48,009 nt of DNA from Chloroflexota bacterium. Its GTDB lineage: Bacteria > Chloroflexota > Anaerolineae > Anaerolineales > Anaerolineaceae. A program made the translations under genes and the position numbers. The DNA lies in NCBI GenBank assembly GCA_021779955.1, contig JAJXZS010000010.1, positions 1-48,009 of the forward strand. Direction: 5' to 3'. Positions within the stretch are counted from its first letter, which is position 1. The number at the start of each line of letters is the position of its first letter. The notes below the pieces were generated by a model that saw nothing but the letters and a program-made list of their open reading frames with translations, had not been told where the DNA came from and searched no databases. This document shows, in pieces, positions 15,049-38,391 of this stretch.

Positions 15049-17274
15049 TTAACCATCGAGCCGTTGCAGGCGAAGTAATTGTGCATTGATGGCGACGATG
15101 ATCGTGCTGATCGACATCAGCAGGGCGCCTACAGCCGGCGAAAGCAAAAAACCGACGGGCGCCAAGACGCCTGCAGCCAGCGGGATTGCCACAACGTTAT
15201 ACCCGGCCGCCCAGCCCAGGTTCTGATTCATCTTCCGGTAGCTCGCCTTGCTGAGCCTCAGCGTTCTGACCACATCCTGGGGATTGTTCTTTACCAGGAT
15301 GATCCCCGCTGATTCGACGGCAACATCCGTACCGCTGCCAATGGCGATTCCCACATCCGCCCGGGTGAGCGCCGGGGCATCATTGACGCCATCGCCGACC
15401 ATGGCCACGATATGACCCTGCTTCTGAAGCTCGATGATCTTCTGGTCCTTGTTCTCAGGCAGCACTTCCGCAAAAAAGGTGTCAATGCCAAGTTCGCCCG
15501 CCACCGCTTTTGCCACCGCCTGGCTATCACCTGTGAGCATGGCGACCCGCACACCCATTTCGTGCAGGCTCTGGATCGCCGCTTTGCTTTCAGGCCGGAT
15601 AACATCCGCCAGTGCCAGCGATGCTACCGCCTGCCCCGCACGTACCAGGTGAACCACGCTTTGCCCCTTCGAATTGGATTCGCGCTCGAATTTCGTCAGC
15701 GCTTCCGGTAGAGATAGATTGAGGGTTTCCAACAATCGCGGCCCGCCCACGTATACAGGTTGACCGTCGATTTCAGCCTGGGCACCACGCCCTTCGATTG
15801 CCTTGAAATCGACCGCCTGGGGCAGGTTCACCCCGCGTTCTTTGGCAGACCGGAGGATGCCCTGAGCAATTGTGTGCTCCGAATCGCTTTCGACAGACGC
15901 AGCCAATGCCAACGCATCGGCGTCGCTGATCGCTCCATCCGTGGCAATGCCCACCACCCCAAACCGGCCTTCCGTCAGCGTTCCGGTCTTGTCGAAGACC
16001 ACTATATCGATCAGGCGCGCCTTCTCCAGCGCCAGGCGGTCGCGAATCAGGATGCCGTTCGCTGCCCCCATCCCGGTGGTGATCGAAACGACCAGCGGAA
16101 TGGCCAGGCCAAGCGCATGCGGGCAGGCAATCACCAGGACAGTAGCCACGCGTTCGATCACCTGCACATTGAACCCGACCGCAATGGTCCAGGCAATGGC
16201 AGTAATCACTGCCACCCCAAGAGCAATGTAGAACAACCACCCGGCAGCCCGATCTGCCAGCACCTGGGTGTTGCTTTTGCTTTCCTGTGCCTGCTTGACC
16301 AGGCGCATGATTCCCGCCAACGCGGATTCGTCGCCGGTTGCGGTCACTCTGACGCGCAAGCTGCCGCTCCCGTTGATCGAGCCGCCAATGACCCTGGCGC
16401 CTTTAGCCTTCTCCACCGGCTTCGACTCACCCGAAATCATTGCTTCGTTTACCGCTGAAGTCCCATCCACGATCTCGCCATCTGCGGGAATGCTCGCTCC
16501 GGGCCGCACAAGCAGCAGATCGCCTTTGACCAGTTCCATCGTGCGCACCGGGGTGATACTTCCATCCGCTGCGATCTTTTCTGCCATATCAGGCATCAAT
16601 TTGGCCAGGGCATCGAGCGCTCCCGACGCCTGGCGAATACTGCGCATCTCCAGCCAATGACCCAAAAGCATGATATCGATCAGGGTCACCAGTTCCCAGA
16701 AGAAATCCATCGTCTGCGGGATAAACAAAGTCGCTGCGCTATAAACGAACGCCACCGAGATCGCCAGCGAGATCAGCGTCATCATTCCCGGCTTGCGGTT
16801 TCGGATTTCAGGTATCGCCATCTGGATGAATGGCACGCCGCCGTAAAGAAACACCACCAGCGAGAAGAAAGGCGAAATCCAGGTGGATCCCGGGAATGCG
16901 GGCATGTGAAATCCCAGCAGGCTCTGCAATCCCTGGGAATAGAGCAGCGCAGGGATCGAAAGGATCAGCGACACCCAAAACCGCCTTCTGAACATCTGCT
17001 CGTGGCCTGTGTGGTCTACGTGGGCGGCATGTTCTCCGCCCATGGGCATGGCCATGCCCGCCATGCTTTCGTGATTCATCCCCTGCATTTCATGCCTGTG
17101 AGCATCGTGTTCCATGGGCATTTCGCGCATCGCGCCTTCGCGGTGTTCCTGGCCGGCCTTTTCCGGCATGGGTTGACCGCCATGATCACCGGTCATGGTT
17201 CCACCGTCGTCGCGATCATGCATGTGTTTCATCGATGAGTCGTTTTCCGAATTCTTTTCCTCCATAGGTTCCAT
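15049..17274 (-). CDS. Copper-transporting P1B-type ATPase, CPH (CopB-like) subtype with His/Met-rich N-terminus
   Basis: A 741-residue heavy-metal pump. The membrane metal site is CPH (Cys384-Pro-His386 in [11 protein letters not shown]), the mark of the CopB-like P1B-3 group. Other motifs: actuator ISGES, phosphorylation [13 protein letters not shown] in the nucleotide-binding domain where most P1B pumps have [14 protein letters not shown], and a last-helix pattern [12 protein letters not shown]. No CxxC metal-binding domain is present. Instead the first 95 or so residues are a disordered stretch full of His and Met ([29 protein letters not shown]), a likely copper-binding tail. The ATG at 17274 is chosen for the AAGGAAGAAGGT site before it; the frame stays open 20 codons further up. 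A role in copper export or homeostasis is likely. It is not linked to a regulator here. Confidence 0.9.
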
Positions 17275-17496
17275 CTGTGACCTTCTTCCTTTGGATCGTG
17301 GCCTTGAGATTCCACGCATCCTGGTAAGATGCAATCCCCGCGCATAAGTGCGAACCGGCTGTTCGACACATTCATTCTATTGACAGTAGATTAAAAATCG
17401 GTTTGAACGATGGAGATCTTCATCCATATCCTTCATAAACAGGCGGATACTTCCTTTGAATTTATCTGCAAATGGAAATTCATCATTTTGTATTTG

Positions 17497-22097: not shown

Positions 22098-23714
22098 TTA
22101 ACCCAACAACGCCTTCAACCAGAGATACTGGTATGGTTCCAACGCAAGCAAAAGCTTGCTTTCATCTTCATTGTACTGCCTTGAGGTAAACAAATCCACA
22201 TAATTGGCCGCACGCGTTACCGGCACTTCGAGATGCAGGACGGTATCGCTCAAGTTGTGAACCGCCAATATCGTTTCGTTTTCACTCTCGCGCCGGAAGA
22301 CTGCGCTTCTCGCCTCATGGCAATCGATCCATGTGAAATTGTGGGTACTGAACACTGTGTGATCATGGCGCAAGGCAATCATCTTCTGAATCACATGCCA
22401 CAATGAACCGGGTTCCTTTTCCGCTGCCTCCACATTGACCCTTGAAGGCGCGTATTCGGGCTGGCTGATGATCCGTGAGTAAAGCTGGCCTGCGGTAGAA
22501 AATCCAGCGTTATTGCCGCTCGTCCATTGCATGGGGGTTCTAAGCCCGTTGCGATCGTAGAGCGTGACATCATCACCCATGCCGATCTCGTCGCCATAGT
22601 ACAGGAAGGGCGAGCCAGGCAACGAGAAGAGGAGTGAATGTGCCAGTTCGATCTTGCGCCTGTCGTTATCGAGCAGGGGCGCCAGGCGGCGCCGGATGCC
22701 CAGGTTCAGGCGGTAGCGCCTGTCCGCGGAATATTCGCTCCACATGAACTGGCGCTCCTCTTCAGAGACCATTTCCAGCGTCAGCTCGTCGTGATTGCGC
22801 AGGAATGTGCCCCACTGGCAGCTTGCCGGTATGGACGGCAGTTGCTCCATCGCCCAACGGATCGGCGCAGAATCCGCCTTTTTCATCGCCATATAGATGC
22901 GCGGCATCAATGGGAAATCGAAGGCAACCTGAAACTCATCTCCTCGGCCGAGATACTTCACCACATCCTTCGGCCATTGGTTGGCTTCGCAGATGAGCAC
23001 CTTACCTGGAACCTCGCGGTCGACGAATGCCCGCAACTGCTTCAGAATGGCATGGGTTTCAGGCAGATTCTCGCAACTCGTACCATCGCGTTCGATCAGG
23101 TAAGGCACGGCATCCACCCTGAAGCCGTCGATACCCATTTCCAGCCAGTATTCGACGATTTTGAACATCTCATCGATCACGGCCGGATTGTCGTAGTTCA
23201 AATCAGGCTGGTGCGAATAGAAACGGTGCCAGTAATATTCTTGCGTCGCCTCGTTCCAGGTCCAATTCGATATTTCGGTGTCCAGGAAGATGATGCGGGC
23301 ATCAAGGTACTTTTGGTCCGTCTCGCTCCAAACAAAGTAGTCGTGGTATGGCGATTGACGATCTTCGCGGGCAGCCTTGAACCAGGGATGCTGATCGGAC
23401 GTGTGATTCATTACCAGGTCCATGATTACCCTGATGTGGCGGTTGTGGGCTTCCTGCAGCAGGTTCGCGAATTGATCTACGCTTCCATAGACTGGATTGA
23501 TCTTCCGGTAATCCGAAATATCGTAACCCCCATCGCGCATTGGCGATTCGTAGATGGGCAGCAGCCAAAGGCAATCAATGCCGAGCGATGCAAAATAGTC
23601 CAGTTTTTGCGTCAGCCCGGCAAGATCGCCAACTCCGTCTCCATTGCTATCGTAGAAGGCTTGAACTGACACTTCATAGAAAACCGATTTTTGATACCAA
23701 TACTGATCGACCAT
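22098..23714 (-). CDS. treS: Trehalose synthase (maltose alpha-glucosyltransferase), GH13
   Basis: A 538-residue GH13 enzyme that interconverts maltose and trehalose in the cytoplasm. The start WYQKSVFYEVSVQAFYDSNG, and then DGVGDLAGLTQKLDY, GGYDISDYR, MDLVMNHTS and PYHDYFVWS, are TreS-type sequence. Catalytic residues are Asp201 (GFRVDAV), Glu243 (ICEANQ) and Asp309 (RNHDE). No maltokinase domain is fused. No signal peptide. The gene is last in the minus-strand unit of a sugar ABC importer, 12 bases after the MalG-like permease, so the importer probably handles trehalose or maltose. The ribosome site is weak, suggesting translational coupling. Other GH13 activities (for example oligo-1,6-glucosidase) are less likely. 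Confidence 0.93.
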   Translation of the reverse strand: MVDQYWYQKSVFYEVSVQAFYDSNGDGVGDLAGLTQKLDYFASLGIDCLWLLPIYESPMRDGGYDISDYRKINPVYGSVDQFANLLQEAHNRHIRVIMDLVMNHTSDQHPWFKAAREDRQSPYHDYFVWSETDQKYLDARIIFLDTEISNWTWNEATQEYYWHRFYSHQPDLNYDNPAVIDEMFKIVEYWLEMGIDGFRVDAVPYLIERDGTSCENLPETHAILKQLRAFVDREVPGKVLICEANQWPKDVVKYLGRGDEFQVAFDFPLMPRIYMAMKKADSAPIRWAMEQLPSIPASCQWGTFLRNHDELTLEMVSEEERQFMWSEYSADRRYRLNLGIRRRLAPLLDNDRRKIELAHSLLFSLPGSPFLYYGDEIGMGDDVTLYDRNGLRTPMQWTSGNNAGFSTAGQLYSRIISQPEYAPSRVNVEAAEKEPGSLWHVIQKMIALRHDHTVFSTHNFTWIDCHEARSAVFRRESENETILAVHNLSDTVLHLEVPVTRAANYVDLFTSRQYNEDESKLLLALEPYQYLWLKALLG

Positions 23715-23726
23715 AGAACTCTGTGT

Positions 23727-24941
23727 TTATCCTTTCACAGATCCGGCGAGCATGCCACGGACGAAGAACCGCTGGAAAGCGAAGAATACGACCATGGGAA
23801 TGATGAATGACAGGAATGCAGCGCCGGTAAGTATATTCCAATTCGATCCTCTCGGGTCGATGAGATTGGTGATCTGCACCGTCAGAACCGGGTGGGATGT
23901 GAGGAAAATCTTGGCAACCAGGAAATCGTTCCACACCCACAAGAACTGGTAGATGCCCAGCGATGCAACTGCTGGCACGGAAAGCGGTAGCGCCAGGGTT
24001 GTGAAAGACTTCCAGTGGTTCGCCCCATCCAGATAGGCAGACTCGAAAATCTCTTTGGGCAGCGAGCCTATGAAATTTCGCATCAGGTAGATGGCGTAAG
24101 GCAAGCCAAACCCAACGTGGAATAGCCAGATCCCCAGGAAGGTGCTCTGCATGCCAACCGCCGAGTAAAGCCGGGAAATTGGGACCAGGGCCATCTGCAG
24201 CGGGACGATTTGCAGACCCACAAGGATGGCAAATAGCCACTGCCTTCCTTTGAAATCAAGCCAGGCAAAGGCGTATGCCGCGAATGCCGCCAGGGTGATC
24301 ACCAGGAGAGTCACAGGGACGGTCACGATGATCGAGTTGAGCATCGCAATGCCCATCCCTGCTGGGCTCGTCAGGTCTGAGGCCGTGCAGTTCAACCCAA
24401 GCAGCGCCGCCGTGTTTCCCGAGGCACAATCCTGCAAATAAGAATTCGTGCCTTTATAGCCGACTAGTGCATCCACATAGTTGCTCAATGTAAGGCTTGG
24501 ACCTTTTGCACCTCCCGAGGACAACTTCTGCATATACACCAGAATTTTCCCCAGGATTGGAAGGCTTTGATTGGGGTTGCCTGGCAGCGCCGGGTTCTGG
24601 ACATGCGGCTGCCCATTGATTGGCTGTTTCAGATAGGCCAGGAGCTGGTAATCCCTTTGATACTTGTTCACGATCGCGGGATCCGAGAGGTTCGCCTGGG
24701 GCAGTGCATTGCCTTTGGCGCCATGACACGAAGCGCAATAGGTTGTATATTCGGTTTCTCCAACTACAGGCTGCGGAGTGAAGATCGTCCACCACCCGGT
24801 TGTGCGCACCGCCTCGCGGTCGCGGAATGAGGTGACGAACAGCCCCAGGGTGGGTACGATCCACAAAACGCACATAATAATCAACGCAAGGTTGATCGGA
24901 AGAGCGTGGAAGATGCGATTGAGTGTACGCAGCGGATTCAT
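23727..24941 (-). CDS. MalG-type sugar ABC permease with an embedded cytochrome-c-like domain
   Basis: A 404-residue inner-membrane permease, about 120 residues longer than usual for MalG. Helix 1 (residues 17-38) is followed by the normal FRDREAVRTTGWWTIFTP loop. Then residues about 62-140 form an insertion with the heme c motif CASCH (Cys69, Cys72, His73; bases 24723-24737) in the context YTTYCASCHGAKGNALP, and an end resembling a cytochrome c C-terminal helix (KILVYMQKL). The usual MP axial Met is replaced in NPALPG; His113 or Met137 could be the sixth ligand. A second Cys pair follows in the same loop (DCASGN, LNCTAS). After about residue 185 the permease is ordinary, with an EAA loop EIFESAYLDGANHW. 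Its ATG overlaps the MalF stop by four bases. Permease assignment is secure; heme binding is inference. Confidence 0.85.
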   Translation of the reverse strand: MNPLRTLNRIFHALPINLALIIMCVLWIVPTLGLFVTSFRDREAVRTTGWWTIFTPQPVVGETEYTTYCASCHGAKGNALPQANLSDPAIVNKYQRDYQLLAYLKQPINGQPHVQNPALPGNPNQSLPILGKILVYMQKLSSGGAKGPSLTLSNYVDALVGYKGTNSYLQDCASGNTAALLGLNCTASDLTSPAGMGIAMLNSIIVTVPVTLLVITLAAFAAYAFAWLDFKGRQWLFAILVGLQIVPLQMALVPISRLYSAVGMQSTFLGIWLFHVGFGLPYAIYLMRNFIGSLPKEIFESAYLDGANHWKSFTTLALPLSVPAVASLGIYQFLWVWNDFLVAKIFLTSHPVLTVQITNLIDPRGSNWNILTGAAFLSFIIPMVVFFAFQRFFVRGMLAGSVKG

Positions 24942-25849
24942 CGCATCTCCTCCTGCTTCTGGAACCGGCGGATGTTGAAAATCATGACCGGTATCATGAG
25001 CACGATCAGAAGGGCGGCGATCGCTGTCGAACGGCCTGTGTCTGTAACGATCAGCTGGAACATCCGGTTGGCAATCACCTCGGTGCCGTAGTTACCTCCG
25101 GTCATTACGAACACGATGTCGAATACCTTCAATACGTTGATCGTCATCGTTGTGGTGACCACCACGATGGTGGGCATCACCAGGGGAACCATGACTTTCC
25201 AGAAGGTTTGCCAGCCTGTTGCCCCGTCCACCTGCGCCGCTTCGAGGACCTCGCTTGGCAAGTTCTTGATTGCCGCAGCAAGAATAGTCATGCAAAAGCC
25301 TGTCCAGAGCCACACGCCAACAATCATCAAGCAGAAATCGTTGATGGGATAAGTACTCATGAAGGCTACCGGCTGCCCTCCAAGGCCGACGATGATCGCA
25401 TTGAGCAATCCGGTTTGCTGCCCTCCCCCCGATGTGATCGAATACATGAACTGCCAGATGATGCCTGCGCCAATGAACGAAATGGCCATGGGCATAAAAA
25501 TAATCGATTTGGCGATCTTTTCATACCTTACGCGTTCGGCCAATACCGCAAACAAGAGGCCTGCTGACACCGTACCGGGTACCATCAAAATCAGCCATAA
25601 GGCATTATTCGACAGCGCATTCAACATGATGGAATTGGTGAGCGCGTAACGGTAATTCTCGAAGATCCCCCAGCACGGCTGTCCCTGAACGCAATCCACA
25701 GCTGCAGATTGTGTGCTCGTCCGGTCCATAAAGCTCAACACGACGGTGTTGAATGTTGGAAATGCGATAAACAATGCCATGATGAGCAGAGCCGGGAGAA
25801 GGTAAAGCCAGGGAGCCCATTTCCCTTGTTTCATAATCGCAGGCATCAT
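24938..25849 (-). CDS. MalF-type sugar ABC permease
   Basis: A 303-residue permease with six predicted membrane helices, partner of the MalG-like protein. The EAA loop is EVLEAAQVDGATGWQTFWKV, which docks the ATPase. The first extracytoplasmic loop carries two cysteines in DCVQGQPCWG, which could form a disulfide; the sister permease also has cysteines in the matching loop. The ATG at 25849 has GGAGG eight bases before it and is preferred to the open frame up to 25903, which would run through an intercistronic hairpin. No gene for the ATP-hydrolysing subunit is in the cluster, so a shared MsmK-type ATPase encoded elsewhere is expected. It overlaps the next gene by ATGA, a sign of translational coupling. 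Confidence 0.9.
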   Translation of the reverse strand: MMPAIMKQGKWAPWLYLLPALLIMALFIAFPTFNTVVLSFMDRTSTQSAAVDCVQGQPCWGIFENYRYALTNSIMLNALSNNALWLILMVPGTVSAGLLFAVLAERVRYEKIAKSIIFMPMAISFIGAGIIWQFMYSITSGGGQQTGLLNAIIVGLGGQPVAFMSTYPINDFCLMIVGVWLWTGFCMTILAAAIKNLPSEVLEAAQVDGATGWQTFWKVMVPLVMPTIVVVTTTMTINVLKVFDIVFVMTGGNYGTEVIANRMFQLIVTDTGRSTAIAALLIVLMIPVMIFNIRRFQKQEEMR

Positions 25850-25875
25850 AAGTCGTTCCTCCCTAGAATGAGAAG

Positions 25876-25905
25876 AGTTGGAGCGCACTGGCGTGCGCTC
25901 CAACT
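25876..25905 (-). other. Intercistronic hairpin between binding protein and permeases
   Basis: Perfect 12-bp stem AGTTGGAGCGCA/TGCGCTCCAACT with a six-base loop and no T tract, located between the binding-protein gene and the permease gene. Such hairpins commonly stabilise the upstream mRNA so that binding protein is made in excess of permease. Confidence 0.7.
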
Positions 25906-25921: not shown

Positions 25922-27235
25922 TTACTTTCCGGTGATTTGCTTTTGCGCCGCCGCTGCGGGTGCCAGAGCGGTCGCGATATCCGTACCTTGCACAACCTGG
26001 ATGATCGCTGTCCATTCAGCGCTGGTGAATGGCTCGCCAAGGGTATCGCCAAGATCCGGGGTGAAGCCCTGTGCGCTCGCCAAAGCTGCCGCTTTCTTGA
26101 TCAGCTGCGGATCGGTGTAATTGCCGTTCGCGCCCTTGTTCGGTGATTCATCGAACCCGGTCTGAGCCCAGACCTTGCCGCCATAAGCGCTGGTCAGGTA
26201 AGCGACCATGGCTTTGGCTGCGTTCGAGCTCGAGAATGCCATCATCCAGTCAGCGCCGCCCTGCATGCCCTTGATTCCGGGGAAGGCGAAGAAGTCATAG
26301 TCCGTTCCGTAGACGAGTGTTGGGAACTGGGTCGCAATTTCGCCACCAGCGAAACCGGACTGCTTCACCATCATGGCCTCGGGATTCGGCTGGAAGACCA
26401 GGTAGATGGCGTTCAGGAAGGAGGTATTTAAGGTGCCGTTCGCTCCGCCAACGGTGTATTTCGGATCGGATGCCCACTTCTGGTAAATCTGGTAGGCAGC
26501 CACAACACCAGGATCATTGTATGGGGTCGTGCCGTTGATGATATTCAACACATACTGGGGACCCTGCAGGGTGAGCAGCAGATCCTGGATGAAGTCGGAA
26601 CCGGTCCAGCCTGTGGCTGCACCGTTCTCAAATCCCATACTCCAGGGAACGTTACCGTCGGTGGCCATTTTGTCGACCAGGGTCTGCAGATCGGCAAATG
26701 TCGTCGGAACGGTGTAGCCGAGCGCCTGGAAGCGGGCAGGGCTGTACCAGATGATGGACTTGATGTCCGCTTTGACTGGAATGGCATACAGAGTGTTGCT
26801 GAATGTGCCAAGATCGATCCAGTACGAAGCGTAGTTAGCCGTATCGGCTCCATCAGTGGTCATATTGACCATTTTATCCTGATACAGGCTGACAGGTGAG
26901 CTCGACGGCCAGAACAGAATGTCTGGCGGGGTGCTCTTCACGCGGGTGTCCAACACTGCTGCATCGCGGGTCGATTCGGCCGAGATCTTGATACCGCAGG
27001 CATCCACTAAGGGTTGGAAGATCTTGTTTGCGCTGACTTCCTCGGAGCCGGTCCATTGATACATCAGAGTCAGCGTATCGCCCGACTTTGCTCCCATGCA
27101 GTCGATTGTGCTGGAAATAGCTGTTGGGGCTTCGGTGGTCGCAGCAGTAGTCGGGGCTGGGGTGGGGGTTGCGCAAGCCGCTGCCAACAGGGCGATTACG
27201 ACAAGCGCAATAATGGGTTTCGAAAACGTAGACAT
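25922..27235 (-). CDS. Sugar ABC transporter substrate-binding lipoprotein
   Basis: A 437-residue extracellular solute-binding protein (family 1, MalE-like). A lipoprotein signal (ALVVIALLAAAC, Cys near 21) is followed by a Thr/Pro/Ala linker. The mature part begins DTLTLMYQWTGSEE and has the usual binding-protein features PDILFWPSSSPVSLYQDKM and FAFPGIKG with a Gly/Ala-rich hinge. GAGGAAAGG precedes the ATG. It is the first transport gene after the LacI regulator and should be the most abundant product, helped by the hairpin downstream. Ligand not readable; linkage to treS suggests trehalose, maltose or related alpha-glucosides. Confidence 0.9.
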   Translation of the reverse strand: MSTFSKPIIALVVIALLAAACATPTPAPTTAATTEAPTAISSTIDCMGAKSGDTLTLMYQWTGSEEVSANKIFQPLVDACGIKISAESTRDAAVLDTRVKSTPPDILFWPSSSPVSLYQDKMVNMTTDGADTANYASYWIDLGTFSNTLYAIPVKADIKSIIWYSPARFQALGYTVPTTFADLQTLVDKMATDGNVPWSMGFENGAATGWTGSDFIQDLLLTLQGPQYVLNIINGTTPYNDPGVVAAYQIYQKWASDPKYTVGGANGTLNTSFLNAIYLVFQPNPEAMMVKQSGFAGGEIATQFPTLVYGTDYDFFAFPGIKGMQGGADWMMAFSSSNAAKAMVAYLTSAYGGKVWAQTGFDESPNKGANGNYTDPQLIKKAAALASAQGFTPDLGDTLGEPFTSAEWTAIIQVVQGTDIATALAPAAAAQKQITGK

Positions 27236-27346: not shown

Positions 27347-28381
27347 CTAAATGACGATACGTCCCATGGTGGATTCGCGCACCACTAATTCGATATCCAA
27401 CAATAAGCCTTGCTGTTCCAGCTCTTTGCCCAGGAGTAACCTGGTCAGCTGCTCCCCGGCGTTCCACCCTAATTCGAAAGCAGGCAGGCGGATGGTCGTC
27501 AGCGGAGGATCGACATAGGCTGCCAGCGGCACATCATCGAAGCCGACTACTGCAATATCCTCGGGAATGTGTTTACCTGCGTGATGGATCGCCTTCATCG
27601 CTCCGAGGGCCACCACATCGCTTGCCACGAACACAGCGGTTGGCGGCTGTGGCAGGCCGAGCATTTTTTGCATGGCTTCATAACCGCTTTCCGGGGTATA
27701 TCCACCTTCCAGGATCAGTTCCCCCTCAATTGGGATTCCTGCGCCGACCAGTGCATCCTCATAGCCTTGCCGCCGGTGTTGCGCAGACGTATACTGCAGC
27801 GATGCGTTAGTGATCAGGCCAATCCTGCGGTGTCCCAACTGAATGAGATGCCGCGTCGCAGTCGCCGCGCCTTCCACGGCGTTAACGTCCACAAAGGGTA
27901 ACGGGCTTCCGCTCAATTGGCCCATCAGCACAATCGGAAAGCCGTTCTCCACAAACCTGGCTATCTCCTGGTCATCCTGGCGTGGACCTGAAAGAATAAT
28001 CCCATCGACAAGGTGCTCGCTTGCCAACTGCGCATAACCCGAAAGATTCTTTGGGTCGTACGGTTTGAGCAGAACGTGATAGCCATACTGACTTACCGAT
28101 TGTTCGATGCCAAACATTACCCGCAGCAAAAAGGCGTCGGCAAAGACCTGCTCTGGGCTCTGTTGAAGCACCAGTCCGATGGTCGACGATTTTCCCGAGA
28201 CAAGTTTTCTGCCCGAAGCATCGGGGTGATAGTTGAGCCGCCTGGCAGCTTCCAATACGCGTTGGCGCGTGGCTTCGTTGATGCTCACACTGGTGACATT
28301 GTTCAAGACAAAAGATACCGTGGATCGAGATACTCCGGCTTCTTTGGCAACGTCGAAACTGGTCACCCTCTTGCCAGTCAA
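27347..28381 (-). CDS. LacI-family transcriptional regulator
   Basis: A 344-residue regulator. The N-terminal helix-turn-helix is TSFDVAKEAGVSRSTVSFVL (about residues 7-26), followed by the hinge helix RRLNYHPDASGRKL and a periplasmic-binding-protein-like sugar-sensing core (STIGLVLQQ, HLVDGIILSG, RRIGLIT, DIAVVGFDD). It precedes the sugar importer genes on the same strand by 111 bases and is the likely sugar-responsive repressor of the operon. Its own promoter contains a perfect 12-bp palindrome, indicating autoregulation. Ribosome site AGGAGGG stands before the ATG. Confidence 0.94.
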   Translation of the reverse strand: MTGKRVTSFDVAKEAGVSRSTVSFVLNNVTSVSINEATRQRVLEAARRLNYHPDASGRKLVSGKSSTIGLVLQQSPEQVFADAFLLRVMFGIEQSVSQYGYHVLLKPYDPKNLSGYAQLASEHLVDGIILSGPRQDDQEIARFVENGFPIVLMGQLSGSPLPFVDVNAVEGAATATRHLIQLGHRRIGLITNASLQYTSAQHRRQGYEDALVGAGIPIEGELILEGGYTPESGYEAMQKMLGLPQPPTAVFVASDVVALGAMKAIHHAGKHIPEDIAVVGFDDVPLAAYVDPPLTTIRLPAFELGWNAGEQLTRLLLGKELEQQGLLLDIELVVRESTMGRIVI

Positions 28382-30884: not shown

Positions 30885-32345
30885 ATGGAATCGGCCAATT
30901 CCGAAAAGAGCCGTCCCAACTGGTTATCGCGAGCACTGCACGATGACAGTACTTCATTAGCCTTTTTCGTTGGGGCGGCAGTCTTGATCGTCCTGGGTGT
31001 GACCGAAGGGCTGATCATGGTGATCCAGTTCGTCTTCCCCGATTTTCTTGCAGGCATCCCATGGTTGGTCTTCGGCCGAATACGCCAGAGCCACACCAAC
31101 ACGGTGATGTTTGCATTCCTCTCGATGGGGCAGATGGGGTTCTGGTACTATGTCATCCCCCGACTCACCGGACGAAAACTGTATAGCGAAGCACTCGGCG
31201 TCATTTCGGCCATTCTGTGGGGTGGCGCCGTGCTCGCCGGAGTGATTCTTGAGCTGTTTGGATTCTCACAGGGTCGGGAATATGCTGAGATGATCTACGT
31301 GATCGACGTCGCGGTGATCGTCGTTTGCATATTGAACATCATCAATCTGTTCATGACCATCTCGAAACGAGTCGAGCAAAACCTCTACGTGGTTGTCTGG
31401 TACATCGCCGGCGCGCTGATGTGGTTCCCGCTGCTGTACTTCATTGGCAATGTGATGTGGAATCCTCCCTCAGGAGCGCTCACCGGCATAAACGACGCGA
31501 TCTTCAACTGGTTCTACGGGCACAATGTGCTTGGCCTTTGGTTCACTCCGGGCTTGCTCGCGGTGAGTTACTATATCGTCCCCCGTGAAACCCGCACGCC
31601 TGTCTACAGCCATTTCCTCTCCCTGATCGCCTTCTGGGGACTGGTCATATTCTACACAGGCGTCGGCGGTCACCATCTTGAATGGGCGCCGATTCCGTAT
31701 TGGCTGAAGACCATCGCAGTGGCTGAAAGCATCGGCATGTCGGTGACAATTATCGCATTTCTTTTCAACATGTGGATGACCATGCGCGGTAATTGGAACA
31801 AGGTGGGCAGCAGTCTGCCGTTGAAATTCGTGACCGTCTCCTGGCTTGCCTATGTTCTGGTCTCTTTCCAGGGCACGCAAGAGGCGCTGCGCAGCATCAA
31901 CCTGTTAACCCATTTCACCCAATATGTAACTGCACACGCACATTTGAGCCTGCTCCTGTTTGGCGCTTCGGCAGTGATGGGCGCCGCTTACTTCTGCATT
32001 CCCAAAATGCTGAACATCGCCATCTGGAGCAAGAAACTCGCCAACATCGGCTTCGTCCTCTACATTATCGGATTTTCATTCTTCTTCCTGGGATTCCTGC
32101 TGGTGGGGCTTACCCAGGGAGCCGCCTGGGTGCATATTGGCCTGCCGGTCTGGACTGTCCTGCCAGGCATCCGTCCCTACCTGGCGCTGCGTGCGGCTGG
32201 AGGCACCGTGCTTTGGTTAGGATTCATCTTCTTCGTCGTCAATATTCTCGCTACAGTGATCGTCCGCAAGCCAGTTTCGGTTCCATCCCAATCTGAAGTC
32301 AAATCCAATACCGGACTGGTACCCGACGGAACACCGGCTGATTAA
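30885..32345 (+). CDS. ccoN: cbb3-type cytochrome c oxidase catalytic subunit I (CcoN)
   Basis: A 486-residue heme-copper oxidase subunit with about twelve membrane helices; it reduces oxygen to water and helps build the proton gradient. Predicted ligands: low-spin heme b His70 (RQSHTN) and His353, high-spin heme b3 His351 (TAHAHLS), CuB His213 (YGHNV), His263 and His264 (GGHHLEW). The cross-linked tyrosine of C-family oxidases is matched by Tyr257 in the HH helix. This Tyr position and the HH context distinguish cbb3 from aa3 enzymes. AAGGAGGG precedes the ATG. It is first in a seven-gene plus-strand run with gaps of 2-19 bases or overlaps. High-affinity oxygen respiration is the family role. 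Confidence 0.93.
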   Translation: MESANSEKSRPNWLSRALHDDSTSLAFFVGAAVLIVLGVTEGLIMVIQFVFPDFLAGIPWLVFGRIRQSHTNTVMFAFLSMGQMGFWYYVIPRLTGRKLYSEALGVISAILWGGAVLAGVILELFGFSQGREYAEMIYVIDVAVIVVCILNIINLFMTISKRVEQNLYVVVWYIAGALMWFPLLYFIGNVMWNPPSGALTGINDAIFNWFYGHNVLGLWFTPGLLAVSYYIVPRETRTPVYSHFLSLIAFWGLVIFYTGVGGHHLEWAPIPYWLKTIAVAESIGMSVTIIAFLFNMWMTMRGNWNKVGSSLPLKFVTVSWLAYVLVSFQGTQEALRSINLLTHFTQYVTAHAHLSLLLFGASAVMGAAYFCIPKMLNIAIWSKKLANIGFVLYIIGFSFFFLGFLLVGLTQGAAWVHIGLPVWTVLPGIRPYLALRAAGGTVLWLGFIFFVVNILATVIVRKPVSVPSQSEVKSNTGLVPDGTPAD

Positions 32346-32356
32346 AGGAGGATAAC

Positions 32357-34351
32357 ATGAAAATGTCTTTTGCCATTATCGTCGGTGGGGCATTGTTTAT
32401 TTTCTTCGCGGTGGTCATGGTTGTCGTGTTCATCCCCGGTTGGGTGTGGACTCCACCCCAAACGATCGCAGCCCATGTCTACACCGACCAGGAACTCGTC
32501 GGCCGCAAACTTTACTTTACCAACGGTTGTGACTACTGCCACACCCAATACGTCAGATACTACGATGCCGACAACACCGGTCCCATCTCTCAGGGCGGGA
32601 ACTACGTGTTCGACAGCCCCGTAGTTCTGGGTTCGGAACGTACCGGCCCCGATCTTTCGTATATCGGGCGCAAGCGCGACTTGGCGTGGGAAATCAACCA
32701 TCTGAAAAATCCGCGCGTATATTCGCCCATGTCCATCATGCCCAACTGGTACTTCCTCTCTGATTCGGATCTCGCCGCCCTTGGCGCCTACTTGTTTGCC
32801 CTGGGCAACCGGGTAGCCGGCGAATACATGATCACAGCCCCGGTCGACTATTCGCATCTCACAAATCCGATGACGATTCCTGAAGTAACGCCCGACCCCA
32901 CCGGCGCTCCGCAAGGCTGGGCTGCCTGGACCGCAGCAGGATTGCAGGATGGCAAAACGATCTACATCGACCGCTGTCAGGTCTGTCATGGTTGCTCAGG
33001 CAACGGCCTTGGCGTTTATGCTTCAACGAAGGTGGTGACTCCTGCCGACTTCAAAGTGGAGCCCTTCCGCTACATGCCTGACGATCAATGGTTCTGGCAC
33101 GTTTCCGAAGGCATCCAGGGTTCGGTTATGCCGCCATGGCGCGAGAGTCTGACAGTAACAGAACGCTGGCAGGTGATCAATTACATCCAGCAGGAATTCG
33201 CGCAACCTGTGGAACGCGATCCGGATGAAGGCAATCCCACAGGTCAATACGCTGGAGCCACCAATCCACTGCCCCCGACCGTGGAAACGGAAGAGACCGG
33301 CAAAACAATCTTTATACGCGAATGCATGGTCTGTCATGGCGACGCCGGCGTTGGCGAGGGCATCTACAACCAGTTCATCCGTCCTCAGCCGCCCAATTTC
33401 AGCGACCACACCCACTATGGCACCATCGCCAATCCGCTATTCACCGATGCGGATTACTACTGGCGCATCAGTGAAGGCCTGCCCTGGGCTGCCATGCCCA
33501 TCTGGAAAGTCAAGTACTCGGATAACGATCGCTGGACGCTGGTCTACTACATCCGCGTGAACCTCACCCAGACGCTTCCCCGCCCGGATGTGGTTGGCGC
33601 ACAGGAGTATCCTCCGATCTACCTGGCCCAGACTGCGCCTGTAAACATGACGGCCAACGATGCCGATGTCGGGGATGCAAGCCAATTGGTTTACAGCGCT
33701 CCCGACCCGGAACTGGGCAAAGTGATCTTTACCACATTCTGTGCCGAATGCCACGGCTCAGATGGACTGGGAAACGGGTGGAATGCCCAATTCCTCGATA
33801 TCAAGCCCGCGAACTTCACCAACCCGGATGTCGCCGGATTGGGTGAAGGCGACTGGTATGCGCGCGTCAGCCTTGGATTACAAAACTCGGCGATGCCTAC
33901 CTGGGGTGAATGGCTGCCAGAGCAGAACCGCTGGGACGCCATATCCTTCATACAAAAATTCATCATCACTGCAAATCCAACCGGAACGGCGACTTTTGTG
34001 CCCAGCGTTTACACCCAGAACGGCGGCAAGGTACAGACGCTGTACATCACCTTGAGCCAGGCAGATTGGACCGCAGAAGGCAATACCATCGATACCACGA
34101 ACGGCGCCAATGTCTACACCCAATACTGCGCAGCCTGCCATGGTGACAAGGGAGCAGGCCTTACGGCTGCCACCACATTGGCAGGATTGGCATATCCGTC
34201 TCCCTTCCCTGCGAATATGCCTCAATCTTACGTCTACCAGCAGATCTGGTCCGGCATCCCCAATTCATTGATGCCTTCATTCAAGCCGCTGCTTCAACCG
34301 TCGGATGTTTGGGATCTGGTCGTCTACCTCGTCGGCAACAACACCCAATAA
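32357..34351 (+). CDS. Pentaheme CcoO/CcoP-like fused cytochrome c subunit of the cbb3-type oxidase
   Basis: A 664-residue membrane-anchored multiheme cytochrome. One N-terminal helix (about 5-26) is followed by a CcoO-like domain with GRKLYFTNGCDYCHTQYVR (heme at 58-62), TGPDLSYIGRKRDLAW and SIMPNWYFLS. Four further cytochrome c domains follow, with CQVCH (207-211), CMVCH (323-327), CAECH (462-466) and CAACH (591-595). Each has a downstream MP axial-ligand motif (VMPPW, AMPIW, AMPTW, LMPSF). Canonical cbb3 enzymes use a monoheme CcoO and a separate diheme CcoP; here both roles and two extra hemes appear in one chain. The ribosome site AAAGGAGG overlaps the ccoN stop. It would carry electrons to CcoN on the outer face. 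Confidence 0.9.
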   Translation: MKMSFAIIVGGALFIFFAVVMVVVFIPGWVWTPPQTIAAHVYTDQELVGRKLYFTNGCDYCHTQYVRYYDADNTGPISQGGNYVFDSPVVLGSERTGPDLSYIGRKRDLAWEINHLKNPRVYSPMSIMPNWYFLSDSDLAALGAYLFALGNRVAGEYMITAPVDYSHLTNPMTIPEVTPDPTGAPQGWAAWTAAGLQDGKTIYIDRCQVCHGCSGNGLGVYASTKVVTPADFKVEPFRYMPDDQWFWHVSEGIQGSVMPPWRESLTVTERWQVINYIQQEFAQPVERDPDEGNPTGQYAGATNPLPPTVETEETGKTIFIRECMVCHGDAGVGEGIYNQFIRPQPPNFSDHTHYGTIANPLFTDADYYWRISEGLPWAAMPIWKVKYSDNDRWTLVYYIRVNLTQTLPRPDVVGAQEYPPIYLAQTAPVNMTANDADVGDASQLVYSAPDPELGKVIFTTFCAECHGSDGLGNGWNAQFLDIKPANFTNPDVAGLGEGDWYARVSLGLQNSAMPTWGEWLPEQNRWDAISFIQKFIITANPTGTATFVPSVYTQNGGKVQTLYITLSQADWTAEGNTIDTTNGANVYTQYCAACHGDKGAGLTAATTLAGLAYPSPFPANMPQSYVYQQIWSGIPNSLMPSFKPLLQPSDVWDLVVYLVGNNTQ

Positions 34352-35296: not shown

Positions 35297-36007
35297 CTGG
35301 CAGCATTTTCCGGACTCATCACAGCCCTGCTTCTGGCAGGCCTCGTCGGAAGCGTGGGGCATTGCATTGGTATGTGCGGGCCATTATTGATCATGGTAGG
35401 AGCCCGCTATCCCAGGCAGGGGATAGCGGCAACCCCATATCACGTGGTTTATCACGTTACCCGCATCCTTGTCTACGCCGTTTTGGGGTTTATTTCAGGC
35501 GCAATCGGTGGGGCGCTGGATCAACTTGCATTTGCAGCCAAAATCCCGGGGGTGATCAGCATGGTTTTCGGGGCAATTGTGATCGTGTTTGGCCTCAGTT
35601 ACCTCGGCTGGCTGCCGTTTTGGAAACGCTCGATCGGATCTGGCGGTTGGTGGACAAGCAGCCTTAAATCCGTGATGAAGGCTTCAGGATGGCAGAATTC
35701 GCTCATCCTGGGAGGGCTAAACGGCATCCTGCCGTGCGGCCTTGTATATGAATCTTTGTTGATCGCAGGCGCGTCAGGAAACCCCTGGGTTGGCGCGCTT
35801 GGCATGTTCACCTTCGGGCTCGCCACCCTCCCTGCCCTGGTGGTCTTCGGCGTCGGCGCGCAGATGATTTCGCTTAAGGTCCGCAAATACCTCTTCTGGG
35901 CAGGAGGAGTGTTTGTGATCCTTATCGGCATCCTTCTGATCCTGCGCGGGGTCAGAGGCCTGGGTGTTGGATCTTTGTCGTTCTCTATCATCGGGATTCC
36001 GCTGTGA
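35297..36007 (+). CDS. TauE/SafE (UreH_2-type) membrane protein, probable copper-related cbb3 biogenesis factor
   Basis: A 236-residue polytopic membrane protein. The family mark GSVGHCIGMCGPLL comes in helix 1, and NGILPCGLVYESLL in a later helix; the cysteines are those thought to handle metal in this family, often found beside ccoI. The first helix (FSGLITALLLAGLVGSVGHC) starts upstream of the GTG at 35354, so that GTG is too late. The nearest upstream start-like codon is CTG at 35297, two bases after the previous stop and some ten bases after GAGGAAG. I therefore give 35297, with doubt about the initiating codon. The gene overlaps the CcoI-type ATPase by four bases (GTGA). Confidence 0.75.
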   Translation: MAAFSGLITALLLAGLVGSVGHCIGMCGPLLIMVGARYPRQGIAATPYHVVYHVTRILVYAVLGFISGAIGGALDQLAFAAKIPGVISMVFGAIVIVFGLSYLGWLPFWKRSIGSGGWWTSSLKSVMKASGWQNSLILGGLNGILPCGLVYESLLIAGASGNPWVGALGMFTFGLATLPALVVFGVGAQMISLKVRKYLFWAGGVFVILIGILLILRGVRGLGVGSLSFSIIGIPL

Positions 36008-38391
36008 GCGAAGGCCGCTGTGACCTTTGCGGGCTTCCCCTGCCGAGGGAACCCATCCATCTGCAATCCGGCGATCCAACCAGACTCTTCTGCTGTGAAG
36101 GATGTGCCCGCGTCTACGAGGTGGCTCGCGACACGGGCATGTTGGATATCGTCCTTGCCCAAACGGGCGTTGCTGCAAAGAAGCCCCCTGTTCAGACAAA
36201 ACCGGCGCAGGTTACCAAAGAAACAGCCTTCTTCGATCTCAACGGTATGTGGTGCGCAGGTTGCGCCCTCGCGGCTGAACGCGTGCTTGCCAACAACCGC
36301 GGCGTGATGGATGTGTCCGTCAGCTTTGCAGCAGAACAGGGCCGCATGGAATATGATGCAAACCAGGTCGATGCTGCCGAATTGCTCAAAAGACTGGCTC
36401 CACTGGGCTATCGCGCCACGATCACGTCGTCAAAAGAAAAAACAGAAAAAGAGCGTTTTCAAAATCGGGTGGGCCTCCAACTCATCGCCGCTACAGCCTT
36501 CGGCATGGAGATTATGGTGCTCTACCTGGTTCAGCTCTATCCAGCCTACTCGCTTGGGCTGTACGACACAGTGACCATCCGGCGCATCCAGTTCATCGTC
36601 TGGGCGCTCACCACTCCCGTAGTCTTTTATGGCGGCTCCACGTTCCTGGTCGGCGCGTGGCGGGCGCTGCGCGCCAGAACCGTCGGCATGGACACGCTGG
36701 TCGCATTGGGGGTGCTGGCTTCTTATTCCTACAGCGCGTATGTCACCATTACCGGAATCGGCCAGACGTATTTCGATTCGTCCTCCATGATCGTCAACTT
36801 CATCCTCATCGGGCGCTATTTGGAAAACGTTGGGGGTGCTCAAGCGCGCAAGGATTTGCGTTCTCTCCTTCGCCTGCAGCCCTCGCTCGCCTGGCGCAAG
36901 TCTGATGCGGGATGGGCCCAGGTAGCGGCGGATTCGCTCGTCATTGGCGATACGATCATGGTCAAACCCGGCGAGCGGATCCCTGCGGATGCCAGGATTA
37001 TCGAGGGCGACGCAACTCTCGATGAATCCATGTTGACCGGGGAATCTCAGCCGGTCGCGCGCGGTACCGGCGATCCAGTGTATGCCGGTACCATCATCCA
37101 TGAAGGTGCTCTCACCGCATCCGTCGTCCTTCCCCCCGGAAAAACCAGGCTTTCGCAAATCGCAGATCTGGTTTCAAAAACGCTCAGCCAGAAGCCGCAT
37201 ATTCAGCGCCTGGCAGATCAGGCGTCCACTTATTTTGCCTTAGCCATTATCTTTCTTGCTGCTGCCACCTTTGCGGGCTGGTACTTGAGGACGAATTCCT
37301 TCGCAAATGCGCTCCTGGCATCCGTAGCCGTACTGGTCGTCGCCTGCCCGTGCGCGCTTGGCCTGGCCACCCCGCTGAGTATGGCAGTGACCATGGGAGC
37401 CGCGGCTCAAAAGGGCATACTCATTCGTTCTCCTGAAGCGCTGGAAACATCTTCCTCGATCGAAAAATTCGTCTTCGACAAGACAGGCACCCTCACGCGC
37501 GGTACTCTTTCGGTGGTGGATGTGATTCCGCTCCCGGGGACAGATATTTCCAGGGACACCCTACTGCAAATTGCAGCGTCCGTGGAGCAATTCTCCGAAC
37601 ATCCGCTTGCATCTGCCATTGTCCGCGCGAGCAGCCTGCCCTTACTCTTTGCCACCGAGTTTGTATCACTTCGTGGAGCCGGTGCTTCGGCAAAAGTCGC
37701 CTCCGATCCTCCGCAGCGGGTATCCGTCGGCTCGATGCGATTTGTTTCAATTGAACCGGAATCCCAGGCCGACAAATTTGCGGCCCCTTTTGCCTCCAGG
37801 GGCAATACGGTTGTTTGGATAGCTCTCGATGGGACGCCCGCCGGCTTCATCGCCTTGATGGATGTCCCCAACTCGACCGCCAGTTCCGCCCTCGAGCAGC
37901 TGCAGAAACAGGGCATTCAGACGGTAATGCTCTCGGGCGACACTCCACTCGCTGCGGCATCGATTGCCAAAGAACTCGGGATGGACGCCTATGAAGGCAG
38001 CTGCACACCTGAAGAGAAAGCCGCGAAGATCAAAGAATGGCAGGATCACGGCGAAGCTGTGGGCATGGCCGGCGACGGCGTCAATGATGCGCCGGCGCTG
38101 GCTCAGGCGAACTTGAGCATCACCGTCGCAGGCGGCTCGGATATCTCGGGCAGGGCTTCCGACCTTGTGCTTACCCGCGCCGATCTCACGCTCATCCCAT
38201 GGTTCCTGGACCTTTCGAAGCACACCCGCAATTCCATTCTTCAAAACCTGGGGTGGGCTTTTGCCTACAACCTGGTGGCAGTTCCACTTGCCATGATCGG
38301 CCGGATCAGCCCTGTCATCGCAGCCATCACCATGGCTGTAAGCAGCCTGATCGTCGTCCTCAACTCCCTGCGCCTGAGGGCGTATCACTAA
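36004..38391 (+). CDS. ccoI: CcoI/FixI-type copper P1B ATPase
   Basis: A 795-residue copper pump that loads copper for oxidase assembly. An N-terminal zinc-finger-like module (CDLCGLPLP, FCCEGCARVYE) is followed by a heavy-metal domain with GMWCAGCALAAERVL (Cys84, Cys87). The membrane metal site is CPC at 448-450 (CPCALGLATP), phosphorylation Asp492 in DKTGTLT, actuator TGES, SEHP, and [10 protein letters not shown]. This domain order is typical of CcoI/FixI. The start is GTG at 36004, inside the stop of the previous gene, so translation is coupled. Last gene of the oxidase operon. It differs from the CPH pump elsewhere in this window, which lacks the N-terminal cysteine domains. Confidence 0.92.
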   Translation: MSEGRCDLCGLPLPREPIHLQSGDPTRLFCCEGCARVYEVARDTGMLDIVLAQTGVAAKKPPVQTKPAQVTKETAFFDLNGMWCAGCALAAERVLANNRGVMDVSVSFAAEQGRMEYDANQVDAAELLKRLAPLGYRATITSSKEKTEKERFQNRVGLQLIAATAFGMEIMVLYLVQLYPAYSLGLYDTVTIRRIQFIVWALTTPVVFYGGSTFLVGAWRALRARTVGMDTLVALGVLASYSYSAYVTITGIGQTYFDSSSMIVNFILIGRYLENVGGAQARKDLRSLLRLQPSLAWRKSDAGWAQVAADSLVIGDTIMVKPGERIPADARIIEGDATLDESMLTGESQPVARGTGDPVYAGTIIHEGALTASVVLPPGKTRLSQIADLVSKTLSQKPHIQRLADQASTYFALAIIFLAAATFAGWYLRTNSFANALLASVAVLVVACPCALGLATPLSMAVTMGAAAQKGILIRSPEALETSSSIEKFVFDKTGTLTRGTLSVVDVIPLPGTDISRDTLLQIAASVEQFSEHPLASAIVRASSLPLLFATEFVSLRGAGASAKVASDPPQRVSVGSMRFVSIEPESQADKFAAPFASRGNTVVWIALDGTPAGFIALMDVPNSTASSALEQLQKQGIQTVMLSGDTPLAAASIAKELGMDAYEGSCTPEEKAAKIKEWQDHGEAVGMAGDGVNDAPALAQANLSITVAGGSDISGRASDLVLTRADLTLIPWFLDLSKHTRNSILQNLGWAFAYNLVAVPLAMIGRISPVIAAITMAVSSLIVVLNSLRLRAYH

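Follow-up and report, generated by a model that had tools for sequence, protein, structure and literature searches.

The permease gene and its operon

The 48,009-nucleotide stretch of DNA analysed here (the window) encodes a 404-residue permease. The original prediction had described this protein as MalG-like and its reading frame as unbroken, and both descriptions hold. The protein is read through in one continuous ORF, and its BPD_transp_1 core scores above the Pfam cut-off (Table 1). The best PDB matches to the permease family profile are SugB (8ja7_B, 2.3e-33; 7cad_B, 4.6e-33) followed by MalG (2r6g_G, 2.4e-21), and the AlphaFold2 model of the whole permease (pLDDT 80.4, pTM 0.67) matches the MalG fold (3rlf_G, Z 22.2, rmsd 4.8, 271 residues aligned; 8hps_B, Z 22.2). 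By homology to MalG, the long loop between helix 1 and the core is predicted to be extracytoplasmic, which is where it had been placed. Nine other proteins encoded in the same genome match the permease at E <= 1e-5, with 25-33% identity, and none of these matches covers the insert in this loop.

We scanned a genome collection for related permeases, using the best 80 of 383 loci, and searched 298 genomes of the class (see below). Together, these gave 110 permeases above the score cut, 102 of them distinct, of which 60 (the window's included) carry a CxxCH motif and 42 do not. We refer to the former as haem permeases; because they were chosen by their CxxCH, the presence of the motif in all 60 is no test of its conservation. 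Residues E300, D305, G306 and A307, in a region that we take to be the coupling (EAA-type) motif, are invariant across the set.

The permease gene lies among genes for a partner permease, a sugar-binding lipoprotein, a LacI-family regulator and a trehalose synthase, TreS, and the MalF and MalG genes overlap by four bases (24938-24941). The full order LacI, binding protein, MalF, haem-bearing MalG and TreS is found in 26 of the 60 haem loci. This count, like those given per gene in Table 1, is a floor, since many of the loci end early. In six loci (L024, L027, L036, L049, L051 and L060), TreS is missing despite 5 kb of downstream sequence, which argues against a fixed link to TreS. We found no cognate ATPase among the operon genes examined, and assume that the importer uses a shared one. 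The TreS neighbourhood and the similarity to SugB make trehalose or maltose the likely cargo; the trehalose/maltose context first proposed is thus upheld by an operon with a binding protein, MalF and usually TreS, and by SugB as the best PDB match.

Table 1. Features of the permease operon and the nearby oxidase genes, in window coordinates
Feature	Position	Strand	Evidence
Trehalose synthase TreS (GH13)	22098..23714	-	4.4e-203 to solved 5h2t; homologue in 45/60 haem loci
MalG/SugB-like ABC permease with inserted cytochrome c domain, 404 aa	23727..24941	-	ORF, Pfam, PDB profile, fold match
BPD_transp_1 permease core, residues 215-397	23751..24299	-	Pfam 50.2 bits, cut-off 26.4
Two-cysteine element C172 to C185, possible disulfide	24387..24428	-	Both Cys in 60/60 of the haem set
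Cytochrome c domain in first extracytoplasmic loop, residues ~55-149 (~95 residues)	24495..24779	-	Profiles, alignment, AF2 model
His113, predicted distal axial ligand	24603..24605	-	Kept in 59/60; CcoP alignment
CxxCH haem-attachment motif CASCH, residues 69-73	24723..24737	-	60/60, set chosen on CxxCH
Transmembrane helix 1, residues 16-37	24831..24896	-	AlphaFold2 helix H16-37; homology to MalG
MalF/SugA-like partner permease	24938..25903	-	BPD_transp_1 3.6e-16; homologue in 59/60 haem loci
Sugar-binding lipoprotein of importer	25922..27235	-	AcbH-like 8.6e-11 (PDB); homologue in 52/60 haem loci
LacI-family regulator	27347..28381	-	Pfam LacI + Peripla_BP_3; homologue in 30/60 haem loci
Haem-copper oxidase catalytic subunit, CcoN-like	30885..32345	+	COX1 5.4e-73
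FixO/CcoO + CcoP-like fusion, five CxxCH, 664 aa	32357..34351	+	FixO 8.3e-30 + four CBB3 stretches

Three minor observations concern the operon. The binding protein is only weakly AcbH-like; Pfam yields nothing for it, even at E 10, and its NCBIfam matches, to GlcS (7.8e-8) and NgcE, are weak. A CxxCH in the MalF frame of locus L104 was dismissed, as it lies at residue 18, upstream of the alignment start at residue 63. Finally, on contig NZ_LGCM01000045.1 of Levilinea saccharolytica, the operon appears twice in opposite orientation (L013 and L014) over 8180 bases that are 100% identical; either the operon has truly been duplicated and inverted, or the assembly is faulty at the end of the contig.

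A cytochrome c domain between the first helix and the permease core

The insertion carries CASCH, as predicted, within the surrounding sequence EYTTYCASCHGAKGN, and the domain that holds it is closer to 95 residues than to the 80 or so originally estimated. Family-wide, profile searches agree with the earlier reading of the insertion as a cytochrome c: at E <= 0.01, Cytochrome_CBB3 is matched by 59 of the 60 domains and Cytochrom_C by 51, with a best value of 3e-8. The window's own copy is sub-threshold, its loop alone giving E 3.3e-4 against Cytochrome_CBB3 (21.4 bits, under the Pfam cut-off of 27) and 0.018 against Cytochrom_C (16.8 bits, under the cut-off of 21.3). When the domain profile was compared with the PDB, the CcoP cytochromes of cbb3 oxidases ranked first (1.3e-7, 5.4e-7 and 2.8e-6).

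AlphaFold2 places a long helix at residues 123-141 of the loop, and the domain model has a pLDDT of 88.9. The top Foldseek rows for the domain are cytochromes c, weak at E 0.16 and up, and the nearest chain found by VIA is OmcF (3cu4; Z 6.8, rmsd 2.8, 75 residues aligned), with cytochromes c6 similar; these values fall under the tool's caution line of Z 8, below which, by its own warning, a match may reflect a mere common arrangement.

We next consider how a haem would be held. His113, a trait on which the set was not selected, is kept in 59 of the 60 haem permeases, and in the exception, L023, the His is shifted by two residues. The distal Met ligand typical of class I cytochromes c has no conserved counterpart: Met occupies position 114 in 30 of 60 sequences and position 137 in 11 of 60, where 45 have Leu. 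Of the two axial candidates originally named, His113 is therefore retained, and Met137 is rejected. In an alignment with CcoP, His113 falls one column past the Met of Met-Pro, which in CcoP is a haem ligand. Cytochromes of the c type with His/His ligation exist elsewhere, and the domain is predicted to be such a variant, with His73 and His113 as the putative ligands. Overall, a haem is very probably attached to the domain.

The ligands bear on the idea that the domain is a sensor of gas or another small ligand, in which an axial position opens and the binding of NO, CO or O2 controls uptake. Extracytoplasmic haem sensors exist and offer a precedent, but the near-invariance of His113 suggests a six-coordinate haem, and we consider this reading quite improbable.

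Beyond the domain, the two cysteines C172 and C185 possibly form a structural disulfide. The pair is also found in all ten haem-less rows checked (the nine siblings described below and L110) and so is independent of the haem domain. The haem might still regulate the pair, although the pair evidently has no need of haem.

Conservation and distribution of the haem form

Sixty distinct sequences share this architecture. They come from many assemblies, that of Levilinea saccharolytica KIBI-1 among them, and wherever the organism is named in the record it is a member of the Chloroflexota. An assembly chimera or frameshift fusion, a concern raised at the outset, can accordingly be rejected and is given virtually no weight.

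The domains of the other haem permeases share 28-62% identity with the window's. CxxCH and His113 are conserved while most other columns of the domain vary. Of twelve pairs compared, ten were usable; in these, omega is 0.08-0.27 for the domain and 0.02-0.10 for the protein outside it. The other two pairs lack a usable dS, and in two of those retained dS exceeds 1.7, near saturation. The domain is under purifying selection, weaker than that on the permease core.

These data can be set against the possibility that the insert is vestigial, a cytochrome fold that persists without haem. Such a fold could account for the faster evolution of the insert and for a window copy that lies under the Pfam cut-offs. 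However, none of the 42 rows that lack CxxCH keeps the insert, His113 is nearly universal, and omega is well below 1. This possibility appears to us remote, on a par with that of a gas sensor.

We then surveyed genomes by local alignment of a few best candidates per genome, an approach by which a divergent domain could be missed. With this proviso, 139 of 298 genomes of the class match at E <= 1e-40 and 22 cover the whole query including the insert, while 139 of 400 genomes of the phylum match at E <= 1e-80 and 10 span the domain, all of them in the window's order or family. No domain-spanning match was found among the 109 matching genomes of other Chloroflexota classes. Within the window's own family, the full haem form is present in one of the ten genomes listed. 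In the Actinomycetota, 396 genomes yielded 27 with a match at E <= 1e-95, and in no case did the alignment cover the domain. Other phyla were covered by the collection scan alone, and among the best 80 of 383 loci the haem form is confined to the Chloroflexota.

Haem maturation and respiratory genes

A covalently bound haem would call for a maturation system. By Pfam, one contig of the genome encodes CcmB, CcmE, CcmF and CcmH, together with a member of Cytochrom_C_asm that resembles CcmC. Between these genes lie those for a generic ABC ATPase and for a protein of thioredoxin type, which are taken by position as CcmA and CcmG, respectively; neither CcmD nor CcmI was identified. The comparison panel comprised 48 genomes; the haem form is present in 28 and absent from 20, and one of the latter is counted twice (G555 = G664). 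Cytochrom_C_asm was detected in 27 haem-form genomes, and the remaining one, G054, which is 73% complete, has a ResB fragment, so that a maturation family (Cytochrom_C_asm or ResB) is found in all 28. As 16 of the 20 haem-less genomes also have Cytochrom_C_asm, its presence discriminates little. Maturation by System II was rejected for the window's genome: ResB occurs in six of the 48 panel genomes, all of the haem form and this one not among them, and Ccm (System I) is present.

The window also encodes cbb3-like oxidase genes about 6-9 kb from the permease (Table 1). At E <= 0.01, the only Pfam CBB3 matches in the genome are the stretches at 32357-34351 and the haem permease itself; a match on genome contig C31 (0.07) was dismissed, as no cytochrome-like ORF was seen there. 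Across 50 haem-permease genomes (the 28 of the panel and 22 more), 45 have at least two CBB3 matches, a count that is uninformative on cytochromes of other families. The five with a single match are G012, G013, G075, G659 and G670. In G012, G013 and G075 that match lies in the permease, and the length of the ORF indicates the same for G659; G075 gains a second at E <= 0.05.

These genes invite the suggestion that the domain is a permease-tethered cytochrome that gives electrons to or takes them from an oxidase, docking the permease to the respiratory chain with no effect on transport. Both the proximity of the cbb3-like genes in the window and the CcoP cytochromes as closest PDB sequences would fit. 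On the other side, no more than 18 of the 28 haem-form panel genomes have COX1, five of the 50 genomes have the single CBB3 match just described, and no ORF of at least 120 residues matching the domain profile was found in the flanking sequence examined around the other haem loci, a total of 1.8-10.5 kb for each, so that a dedicated partner is not evident. We regard pure electron transfer as rather unlikely.

Two features of the oxidase neighbourhood may be recorded here. The 664-residue fused cbb3 cytochrome subunit that adjoins the CcoN-like gene is unusual. In addition, the window contains three P-type ATPase-like genes, at 7670-10279 (+), 15049-17334 (-) and 36004-38391 (+), the first two assigned by appearance alone. 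The third, downstream of the oxidase, matches E1-E2_ATPase (2.2e-54) and HMA, and its product may be the oxidase's copper pump.

Related permeases that lack the domain

Nine permeases lacking the cytochrome domain are close siblings of the haem permeases. In a permease tree built with the insert columns removed, the haem rows group with the nine siblings in a single clade (SH-aLRT 99.5), and the siblings lie inside the haem clade, next to L040 (97). The permease tree alone does not reject a placement of the siblings outside the haem clade (p-AU 0.18). This placement is rejected by the MalF tree (p-AU 0.0011) and by the combined MalF and MalG tree (p-AU 0.0059), two tests that were picked once the permease tree had been seen. 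The simplest reading of these trees is that the domain was gained once and then lost in the siblings; support for a single loss or for several ranges from 26 to 43 in the MalF and MalG tree. The original prediction had regarded homologues without the insertion as evidence against it. Such homologues do exist in these nine siblings, and the MalF trees favour reading them as losses.

None of the nine sibling genomes has a CBB3 match at E <= 0.01, two have COX1, and six keep Cytochrom_C_asm. These six may make c-type cytochromes of other families; that they keep a maturation-type gene slightly lowers our confidence in a bound haem. Because the nine sibling genomes and the 50 haem genomes share ancestry, the association of domain and CBB3 matches represents one or a few events and not 59. 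Conversely, five haem-less genomes of the panel (G130, G192, G202, G223 and G233) have 6-18 CBB3 matches each, which indicates that cytochromes alone do not bring the domain. L040, the closest haem-bearing relative of the siblings, comes from G670, whose genome has one CBB3 match, as if it stood halfway between keeping and losing CBB3-type cytochromes.

A possible redox-responsive importer

The permease and cytochrome c halves of this protein are both of known kinds; their combination was not found in the literature searched. SugB of the mycobacterial LpqY-SugABC trehalose importer and MalG of E. coli, the nearest relatives by PDB sequence and fold, are proteins of 274-296 residues that match only from about profile position 175-190 and have no cytochrome domain in the TM1-TM2 loop. 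The CcoP cytochrome c domains, which among solved sequences come nearest to the domain profile, differ in that the domain here sits inside a transporter and has its conserved His one column after the Met-Pro methionine. In the part of the source consulted, the urate oxidase PuuD is described as membrane-integral and as fused to a cytochrome c domain; the fusion there is C-terminal, and PuuD is a redox enzyme and no transporter (PMC4562309). A full-text literature search, outside whose reach most subscription papers lie, found no paper in which a permease bears a cytochrome c domain, in agreement with the earlier statement that no described sugar importer is known to have a covalently bound haem in its permease.

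We propose that the MalG-like subunit of a trehalose/maltose-type importer bears an outward-facing, monohaem class I cytochrome c domain, which would be matured by the Ccm system. Less surely, electrons would pass between this domain and either the respiratory chain or redox carriers outside the cytoplasm; oxidation or reduction of the haem would alter the docking of the binding protein or the motion of the loop, and sugar uptake would thereby track respiratory state. Since sugar import entails no redox chemistry, regulation would be the simplest use of a haem, and the retention of the domain in dozens of related bacteria suggests a pump that may sense the respiratory state or react to it.

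Several lines of evidence are consistent with this explanation: the conservation of His113 (59/60) despite domain identities of 28-62%, the first rank of CcoP among the PDB matches, the omega values of 0.08-0.27, the Ccm genes, and the fact that the domain-less siblings occur in genomes without CBB3 matches. Against it stand the five of 50 genomes with one CBB3 match, which imply that a CBB3-type partner is not universal, the faster evolution of the domain relative to the rest of the protein, the sub-threshold Pfam scores of the window copy, and the lack of a matching cytochrome ORF in the flanks of the other haem loci. Weighing these, we assign a haem-bearing importer with redox-responsive control of sugar uptake, as a whole, a probability of roughly 0.45. 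More tentative still is the claim that this would be the first ABC importer with a covalent haem in its permease, in which a loop domain reads the extracytoplasmic redox state and gates trehalose or maltose uptake.

In general descriptions of ABC importers, ATP and substrate both drive and control the pump. Should haem be bound, the permease described here would bring a redox cofactor into the class and would connect sugar uptake with respiration in a direct, physical way. The model is testable, as a named strain, Levilinea saccharolytica KIBI-1, has the haem permease, and the haem-less siblings offer natural controls.

The main rival to redox-responsive control is that the haem serves as a staple: it would be needed for folding, the domain would merely bind the sugar-binding protein or the envelope, and redox state would be irrelevant. 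Three Chloroflexota relatives (L145, L146 and L147) have CxxCH-less inserts in the same TM1-TM2 loop. A similar situation is reported for MalG1 and MalG2 of the Thermotogales, which have a large hydrophilic insert of about 500 residues between helices 1 and 2, with no significant similarity to known proteins and of unknown function; the part of that report consulted mentions no haem for them (PMC2246101). The different inserts across permeases suggest that this loop is a slot that accepts varied domains. The absence of a partner cytochrome ORF from the flanks of the other haem loci would also suit a docking role. Yet a redox cofactor would be an expensive route to a docking domain, and CxxCH and His113 are kept while most of the other columns vary. 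We therefore consider docking without redox control unlikely, though ahead of the other rivals. As for the inserts of L145, L146 and L147 themselves, one has a sub-threshold match to the Ig-like family Big_11 (2e-4) and the other two have no Pfam match.
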